Of a DNA stretch of 64,000 nucleotides, positions 42,275-43,970 are shown piece after piece. The notes below the pieces were generated by a model, which did not search any database, had not been told where the DNA came from, and worked only from the letters and a program-made list of their open reading frames with translations. Every line of letters starts with the position of its first letter. Position 1 is the first letter of the stretch. This stretch comes from Comamonas koreensis (GTDB taxonomy: Bacteria > Pseudomonadota > Gammaproteobacteria > Burkholderiales > Burkholderiaceae_C). The stretch lies in the NCBI RefSeq assembly GCF_014076495.1, contig NZ_CP043575.1:4588001-4652000 (forward strand). Direction: 5' to 3'. The translations under genes were made by a program, and so were the position numbers.

Positions 42275-43318
42275 TCAGATGCTGGCGTTGTCGATCACAA
42301 AACGGTAGGCCACATCGCCGCGCAGCATGCGCTCATAGGCCTCGTTGATCTGCTCGGCCTGGATCAGCTCGATGTCCGCCACAATGCCGTGCTCGGCGCA
42401 GAAATCGAGCATCTCCTGCGTCTCGGGGATACCGCCGATCAGCGAACCGGCGAGGCTGCGCCGCTTCATGATCAGGCCAAACACACCGGGCGAGGGATGC
42501 GGGGTGGAGGGCGCGCCCACCAGGGTCATCGTGCCATCGCGCTTGAGCAGGTTGAAGAAGGGATCGAGCTCATGCGGGGCCGCAACGGTGTTCAGGATGA
42601 AGTCCAGGCTTTGCGCATGCGCGGCCATCTCATCGGCATGGCGTGAGACCACCACCTCGGCAGCGCCCAACGCCTTGGCCGCATCGCGCTTGGATTCGGA
42701 CGTGGTGAACGCCACCACATGCGCGCCCATCGCATGCGCCAGCTTGATGCCCATATGGCCCAGCCCGCCAATGCCCACCACGCCCACCTTGTGGCCGGGC
42801 CCCACGCGCCAGTGGCGCAGAGGCGAATAGGTGGTGATGCCGGCGCACAGCAGCGGCGCCACAGCGGCCAGCTGTTCCGGTGGATGGCTGACCCGCAGCA
42901 CATAGCGCTGGTGCACCACAATGCTTTGCGAATAGCCGCCCAGGGTATGGCCCGGCGCATCGGCGGTAGGCCCGTTGTAGGTGCCGACCATGTGGTTGCA
43001 GTAGTTCTCCAGCCCCATGCCGCAGTCCACACAGTGCTGGCAACTGTCGACGATGCAGCCCACGCCTACCAGATCCCCGGGCTTGAAATCGCTCACATCG
43101 GAGCCGACTGCCGCGACCTCGCCGACAATCTCATGCCCGGGCACACAGGGGTAGAGCGTGCCCGCCCATTCGGAGCGCACCTGGTGGATGTCCGAGTGGC
43201 AGACGCCGCAATAGGCAATGCGGATCTGCACGTCCTTGGCGCCCGGCGTGCGGCGCTCGATGTTCAGGGCTTGCAGGGGTTGGTCACCCGCGTGGGCGCC
43301 ATAGGCTTTGACGGTCAT
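42275..43318 (-). CDS. Zinc-dependent NAD(P) alcohol dehydrogenase (YahK/CAD-like)
   Basis: A 347-residue zinc MDR alcohol dehydrogenase. The catalytic zinc ligands are in 'G-V-C-H-S-D' and 'P-G-H-E', the structural zinc is bound by four Cys between about residues 92 and 107, and the Rossmann motif is 'G-I-G-G-L-G-H-M-G'. It resembles YahK/cinnamyl-alcohol-type aldehyde reductases, usually NADPH-linked, acting on a broad range of aldehydes. The start at 43318 gives the normal length. Confidence 0.93.
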   Translation of the reverse strand: MTVKAYGAHAGDQPLQALNIERRTPGAKDVQIRIAYCGVCHSDIHQVRSEWAGTLYPCVPGHEIVGEVAAVGSDVSDFKPGDLVGVGCIVDSCQHCVDCGMGLENYCNHMVGTYNGPTADAPGHTLGGYSQSIVVHQRYVLRVSHPPEQLAAVAPLLCAGITTYSPLRHWRVGPGHKVGVVGIGGLGHMGIKLAHAMGAHVVAFTTSESKRDAAKALGAAEVVVSRHADEMAAHAQSLDFILNTVAAPHELDPFFNLLKRDGTMTLVGAPSTPHPSPGVFGLIMKRRSLAGSLIGGIPETQEMLDFCAEHGIVADIELIQAEQINEAYERMLRGDVAYRFVIDNASI

Positions 43319-43549
43319 GGTGAAGGTCCTATTCCGTTCGTGGAGGTCAGCGCATGGCGCGGGCAAGGCCACGCCAGCTGGCAGATGCACGGGGTGCTGC
43401 CGCCATGCAAAGGCATAGGCAGTCATGCCCGCATGAAGGCGCGTTCATCTTACGCCCCTTGTATGGCAGATCTGCTGGGGCCGGGCAACGGCTTGCAAAC
43501 CGCTGGTTCTGCCGCCAAAAGCTGATCGCCCTTTTCTTAAAATGGTTTT
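43319..43549. other. Intergenic region upstream of adh, no gene seen
   Basis: No ORF with a plausible protein is present. It presumably holds the alcohol dehydrogenase promoter on the minus strand. Confidence 0.4.
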
Positions 43550-43566
43550 ATGAGAATAATTCTCAT
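43550..43566 (+). promoter_or_regulatory. Near-perfect Fur box
   Basis: ATGAGAATAATTCTCAT is a 17-base palindrome broken only at its centre, the classic Fur operator form (ATGAGAAT-n-ATTCTCAT). It overlaps a possible -10 (AATAAT, 43555-43560) with TTTTCT 17 bases upstream. No iron-uptake gene follows on either side. Confidence 0.82.
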
Positions 43567-43662
43567 TTGCGAATATGATCAACACCAAGGTTCAGCGATT
43601 GCCGCCGTTCCTTGTTTCATCGTGGGGCGACCTACTGGGTTTTCACTCCAGTGGTCGTTTTT
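43567..43662 (+). ncRNA. Candidate Fur-repressed small RNA
   Basis: Transcription from the promoter overlapped by the Fur box would run about 96 bases to an intrinsic terminator (stem 43628-43657, T-run 43658-43662). A 30-codon ORF from 43575 has no ribosome site and reads through the terminator, so a coding role is unlikely. The layout matches RyhB, NrrF, PrrF and BrrF-type iron-sparing RNAs, which are positioned this way by function and not by sequence. The 5' end is estimated. Target pairing was not analysed. Confidence 0.55.
43628..43662 (+). terminator. Intrinsic terminator of the candidate sRNA
   Basis: CGACC(T)ACTGG pairs with CCAGTGGTCG with one bulged T, a nine-base loop and TTTTT directly after the stem. 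Confidence 0.72.
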
Positions 43663-43970
43663 GCTAGCCAGCGGTTCTCCATGTAGCCAGGCATTTTTTT
43701 CACGTTGAAGCGCTCTCGCCGTCTTTGCTGCGCGCTCCGCCCAAGTCCTTCCAATGGACCTTGCCAGGTCAGTGCTCCGGAAGCAGGCATATGCCCTCGC
43801 GGCATGGCGATCCTCTCCCCGGTCTCGTTTATTGCTCAGCGGATGCGCTGTCAAGCGCCTCCTTGTACAGCGCTTTCCTGTCGCCCGGTGCTGCTGACGC
43901 CATCCGGCTATACCCGATGACATAAAAAGTATGCAAGTGCTAACATCCACTCCAATCATCTGGAGTTGGT
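43663..43970. other. Intergenic region without recognisable gene
   Basis: Short frames exist on both strands but none resembles a protein, and none has a ribosome site. It lies between the candidate sRNA and the IPTL-CTERM-like gene, whose ribosome site (TGGAG) is at its right end. It may contain decayed coding sequence. Confidence 0.4.

Follow-up and report, generated by a model that had tools for sequence, protein, structure and literature searches.

A Fur box stands at 43550-43566 of the window (the whole 64 kb stretch of DNA analysed here) with no iron gene next to it, which raises the question of what it controls. A sequence-only reading had proposed a Fur-repressed, iron-sparing small RNA. 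Conservation, genomic context and target sites, all read from sequence, lead us to the same answer: the locus is very probably a stand-alone, Fur-repressed, iron-sparing sRNA gene of the BrrF type and one of four paralogues in its genome.

Promoter, extent and structure of the candidate RNA

The Fur box is the 17-bp palindrome ATGAGAATAATTCTCAT, which matches the consensus at 14 of 14 positions and is perfect, where it had been described as near-perfect. It is the sole site with three or fewer mismatches in the 64 kb (being a palindrome, on both strands), and 100 shuffles of the window yielded no such site. The earlier placement of the palindrome over a −10 element was mistaken, as it overlaps the −35 and spacer of the predicted sRNA promoter. 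This comprises a −35-like hexamer, ATGAGA (43550-43555, plus strand; 18-nt spacer, 9 of 12 matches), and the −10 element TATGAT (43574-43579, plus strand). With TATGAT placed 18 nt after the hexamer within the palindrome, transcription would start near 43586, and bound Fur would mask the −35. In 48 of 53 stand-alone copies from the genus, a TA..(A/C/T)T hexamer occurs no more than 22 nt 3′ of the Fur box. As had been stated, the neighbours are not iron genes. On the left is a zinc alcohol dehydrogenase gene (42275-43318, minus strand, start at 43318), divergent from the sRNA, and on the right, on the plus strand, a gene for an IPTL-CTERM-like protein (Pfam match under the cut-off). The latter gene flanks the window paralogue in three of six loci checked, with a fragment in one more.

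The sRNA probably spans about 43586-43700 (plus strand, roughly 115 nt, both ends predicted from sequence features). It begins with a 5′ hairpin, CAAGG...CCUUG (43586-43614), the sequence of which varies among copies. This is followed by the invariant block TTCATCGTGGGGCG (43616-43629), containing the seed UCGUGG (43620-43625), and by a covarying hairpin (hairpin 1, 43628-43657) with the bulged stem CGACC-u-ACUGG / CCAGU-GGUCG and a U5 run (43658-43662). Two AGCCA elements (43666-43670 and 43685-43689), both unchanged in all 37 aligned copies, precede a U7 run (43694-43700) that is the likely 3′ end. Hairpin 1 and its U5 run are the bulged terminator proposed earlier for an RNA of about 96 nt. 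Both are present, but they are probably not the 3′ end: homologues keep GCYAGCCA...AGCCA and a second U-run past hairpin 1, which points to about 115 nt rather than 96. Given the conserved AGCCA pair and the terminal T5, the 3′ end is most likely at 43694-43700. Some transcripts could nevertheless end at hairpin 1 and U5, before the AGCCA part.

Compared with shuffled sequences, 43567-43664 folds more stably (z −2.1), as does 43586-43706 (z −2.3). If the RNA reached 43706, its tail would pair with part of the seed, a point against the proposed pairing with targets. Just past the U-run, CACGTTGAA (43701-43709; CGATGAAA in some other copies) is able to base-pair with TTTCATCGTG (43614-43623), at the beginning of the conserved block. 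One Comamonas paralogue type (L043, L069, L070) carries a second GGUGGGG within the 5′ hairpin.

A first RNAalifold structure, predicted from a plain MAFFT alignment, had 13 pairs, three with both sides changed, and was judged poor, so the structure used for the covariance model was named by hand. In an alignment of 69 matches, 13 of the 14 named pairs vary on both sides, and 116 cells are double-changed where shuffles give 22.9; because the alignment had been fitted to the model, its figures are flattering. Within the alignment, 95.3% of cells pair, none of 500 shuffles reaches the observed values, and structures slid along the alignment are 20-44% paired. Hairpin 1 was also excised from 121 of 136 matches, and in all 121 it out-folds composition shuffles (z < −1). 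Among the same 136 matches, TCGTGGG is found in 132, at least two AGCCA in 134 and T5 at the end in 134.

Copies, distribution and genomic contexts

The genome that contains the window carries four copies on contig C1, at 4631614 (plus strand, the window copy), 2863491 (minus), 2213264 (plus) and 1427365 (minus), each with a Fur box upstream. A blastn search over 53 genomes of the genus found matches in 20, several places being matched in some of them. The matched places have in common TTCATCGTGGGGCG, a variable hairpin, CGTTTT-GCYAGCCA, a second AGCCA and a T-run. From 32 copies we built the covariance model R1 and searched with Infernal's stricter filters, so that weak copies may be missed. 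The window copy scores 88.9 bits (C1:4631614-4631702, equal to window 43614-43702). R1 matches 47 of the 53 genus genomes. Across the family, where the sequence-only reading had proposed a covariance search, R1 matches 104 of 399 genomes and 38 of 141 genera. At the level of the order, 12 of 399 genomes match, and the four from other families do so weakly (E 5e-4 to 0.01). Similar DNA was not found in a plasmid collection.

Two of the order-level matches (L102 and L103) were dropped as weak and, by eye, apparently inside coding sequence. Three others, L104:1501-1586 (plus strand), L111:1501-1586 (minus) and L101:1501-1585 (minus), share with the family mostly the hairpin and AGCCA part. They represent seedless RNAs of another family (f16) of the same order and consist of a hairpin, AGCCAGCCA, a small hairpin, AAGCCAGC and a U-run. 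L104 and L111 lie directly 3′ of genes with matches to the Pfam Ferritin domain, which are bacterioferritin-like by eye.

The R1 matches occur in two contexts. Among 217 matches with context checked, 85 carry a Fur box of their own, 127 lie just 3′ of hemP, five have neither and none has both. Outside the genus, where all 126 matches were checked, 99 are at hemP (−2 to 229 nt past its stop codon), 22 have a Fur box, five have neither (three of these score 10) and none has both; a Fur box here means a score of 11 or more out of 14 consensus positions within the upstream 140 nt, which one of 630 composition-shuffled upstream sequences reaches. Within the genus, 91 of 115 matches were checked, giving 63 with a Fur box and 28 at hemP, in a non-random sample made up mainly of the best-scoring matches plus 20 of the lowest-scoring, every one of these 20 at hemP. 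Both forms coexist in some Comamonas genomes (e.g., G007, G022 and G029). In one other genus (g87), the RNA occurs as tandem pairs after hemP (L307, L310, L323, L329 and L330). In Comamonas sp. JUb58, closely related to the genome studied here, the RNA was not found in either of the two hemP 3′UTRs. We also looked at 16 genomes picked by name as betaproteobacterial from the 14-mer matches listed, which include chance matches from unrelated phyla; 14 have hemP, nine have an R1 match, and in eight of the nine a match lies beside hemP. Named genomes reached through these 14-mer matches include Comamonas sp. JUb58 and Delftia acidovorans, whose R1 match coordinates coincide with those of genus members G023 and G001, and the host is accordingly taken as Comamonas sensu lato.

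Predicted targets and competing explanations

The iron-sparing RNAs RyhB, PrrF and NrrF have targets of the sdh and sod type, and target prediction in sdh, acn and sod leaders had been suggested for the present locus. This was productive, as CCACGA, the complement of the seed UCGUGG, accompanies the RNA at the ribosome-binding sites of both sdhC and sodB. The pairing region had been placed at 43580-43620; the seed (43620-43625) sits at the 3′ edge of that interval and runs past it.

The sdhC leader carries CAUCCACGAAAG in the genome studied here and in eight of nine other RNA-bearing genus genomes examined, with CCACGA 13-19 nt upstream of the start codon in leaders of the genus. Five readable sdhC leaders from genus members lacking the RNA have no such site. 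In a sample of 76 genomes (40 with and 36 without the RNA, the latter meaning no R1 match under strict filters), 60 of which were added after the motif had been seen, CCACGA lies no more than 40 nt from the sdhC start in 32 of 40 RNA-bearing genomes versus 1 of 30 without the RNA (Fisher test, 2.6e-11), the sdhC start not being called in six RNA-less genomes (G038, G057, G063, G069, G081 and G097). Outside the genus the counts are 23 of 30 versus 1 of 25. For sodB the motif was fixed beforehand. From 30 genomes, 42 of 43 superoxide dismutase matches were viewed; three had no called start, and 26 belong to the sodB class by their N-terminus. CCACGA is present in 18 of 19 sodB leaders from genomes with the RNA versus 0 of 7 without (1.2e-5), and in 1 of 13 dismutases of the other class (G140, which has a sodB-like N-terminus). 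The sodB site is mostly AACCACGAGGA and lies on the Shine-Dalgarno sequence; the sodB leader of the genome studied here has CCACGAGG plus a second CCACG reaching into the ATG. With sdhC and sodB taken together, CCACGA ranks first of 4096 six-mers at separating the groups with and without the RNA.

The strength of this association is tempered by relatedness among the genomes, which is only partly controlled by a single tree of 46 genomes. That tree offers only two independent pairs with good branch support; on average the site goes with the RNA in 1.6 of them and never the reverse, which is not significant. At sdhC, predicted duplex energy did not separate RNA-bearing from RNA-less genomes (p 0.14 outside the genus, 0.20 overall), and 20 of 300 shuffled seeds equal the real seed in that test. 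At sodB the duplex energies do differ (p 0.006).

A 15-nt stretch exactly complementary to the seed block also lies before a peptide ABC-transporter permease gene (C1:873732-873743, L394). Its 14-nt core occurs in four of five close relatives (all 15 nt in two of them) and the fifth has one mismatch; the site is absent from two more distant relatives examined. From these sequences, the permease gene is a possible extra target.

In combination, the features suggest the following operation. When iron is sufficient, Fur would bind at 43550-43566 and block the promoter. When iron is short, an RNA of about 115 nt would be transcribed, with its 5′ hairpin followed by the invariant UUCAUCGUGGGGCG, hairpin 1, a small hairpin flanked by the two AGCCA elements, and a U-tail, and it may act with Hfq. 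In sdhC and sodB, UCGUGG would pair with the CCACGA that overlaps or adjoins the ribosome-binding site, and this pairing would block translation and destabilise both mRNAs, so that less of these two iron enzymes is made and iron is spared. The four loci may raise dosage, or their different 5′ hairpins may tune stability; both dosage and stability tuning are familiar from other multi-copy sRNA sets.

The locus might instead produce an RNA that is no base-pairing regulator of iron enzymes, for example one that binds or sponges a protein through the twin AGCCA. The invariance of these elements and their seedless recurrence after two ferritin-like genes in another family would fit such a role, but the seed block is no less invariant, and RNA-bearing genomes have its complement at the ribosome-binding sites of two genes for iron enzymes, and we regard this explanation as unlikely. 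Somewhat less likely again is that the Fur box controls the divergently oriented alcohol dehydrogenase gene and the remainder is chance. That gene does adjoin the window paralogue in six of six loci checked. However, the RNA part is 90-95% identical among genomes sharing this dehydrogenase-linked paralogue, the −10 is oriented toward the RNA and not the dehydrogenase, and the other three copies in the genome have a Fur box and RNA with no such dehydrogenase within the 3-4 kb examined. That the stretch codes for a short peptide is scarcely credible, as had been argued before: a 30-codon frame (43575-43667, read by eye) covers it, but its ATG sits inside the −10, 5′ of the predicted start, and reads ATC in two orthologues (L002 and L006), hairpin lengths vary among copies without keeping the frame, and base pairs covary. 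We thus retain the Fur-repressed iron-sparing sRNA as the preferred explanation.

Relationship to BrrF and other iron-responsive sRNAs

BrrF (ncS63, BTH_s39) is described, in the excerpts of PMC7377471 used here, as a 126-130-nt RNA that is processed out of the hemP 3′UTR, is induced more than 50-fold by iron depletion, and ends in a U-run without a stem-loop before it. According to the same excerpts, sdhC, sdhA, acnA, fumA, sodB and katB do not drop in low iron without BrrF, and BrrF is reported only from Burkholderia, Paraburkholderia, Pandoraea and Cupriavidus, that study's search having found nothing similar elsewhere (PMC7377471). Further background on BrrF is found in parts of PMC5688073, PMC4035088 and PMC10987360.

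An Rfam search of the window region returned no match, including to iron-sparing families such as RyhB, PrrF and NrrF. The BrrF family, RF02692 (gathering threshold 77 bits, which was not reached), gave no match at E up to 10 in 43480-43780 and none at E up to 1 in 15 related loci; the positive control, L235, scored 148.4 bits. We compared the two families at 29 hemP loci of Burkholderiaceae (90 kb) using R1 without filters. Its matches there are weak (17.8 bits at best), and the nine best all fall within the hemP 3′UTR. Rfam finds RF02692 in 16 of the 29 loci, and R1 overlaps it in nine of the 16, with ends at most 15 nt apart in eight of the nine; in the other seven R1 finds nothing there at E up to 10. 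The hemP 3′UTR of Paraburkholderia polaris, with RF02692 at 148 bits, reads GUAUUGUGGGG, a hairpin, AUUAGCCAGCCA, ..., AGCCAGGC and U6. Judged by gene context and element order, the window RNA looks like a distant relative of BrrF. The earlier assignment to the iron-sparing type is upheld by conservation, context and target sites; the accompanying remark that such RNAs differ in sequence between groups is qualified by this likeness.

The hemP tail is the place of the RNA in Burkholderiaceae and in most Comamonadaceae matches. As this position is common to both groups, we read the stand-alone genes as probably derived. A broader proposal, to which we give an even chance, is that the sRNA began as a processed tail of the hemP mRNA and was freed in Comamonas as autonomous, individually Fur-controlled genes with a shared seed and divergent 5′ hairpins, the twin AGCCA and U-tail being an older iron-linked module that, in another family of the order, also follows ferritin-like genes. 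If the interpretation of the locus is right, a large betaproteobacterial group (38 genera of the family) gains an iron-sparing RNA, no description of which was found among the matches listed for open-licence papers on Comamonadaceae. It would also link BrrF, reported from four genera only in the excerpts of PMC7377471, to stand-alone relatives. The two contexts, both found in several Comamonas genomes, would form a natural series for how an mRNA 3′UTR may become independent regulatory genes, and the two exact target sites predicted are both testable.

The window RNA resembles BrrF (BTH_s39, RF02692) in its order of elements, namely GUGGGG, a hairpin, AGCCAGCC, a second AGCCA and a U-run, and in the hemP 3′UTR position held by 99 of its 126 relatives outside the genus. 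Unlike BrrF, the window copy has its own Fur promoter outside any hemP 3′UTR, is one of four copies in its genome and lacks BrrF's middle part. The proposed sdhC site would also be used differently: it engages the G-rich seed, whereas mutation of successive G's near the BrrF 5′ end left sdhC and sdhA regulation intact while reducing or eliminating that of the other genes tested, as reported in the excerpts of PMC7377471. From RyhB, PrrF and NrrF the RNA differs in sequence, seed and gene context, and it matches none of their Rfam families. It shares with RyhB and PrrF a Fur box of its own (PMC7377471), and with all three its predicted targets of the sdh and sod type (partly after the same excerpts).
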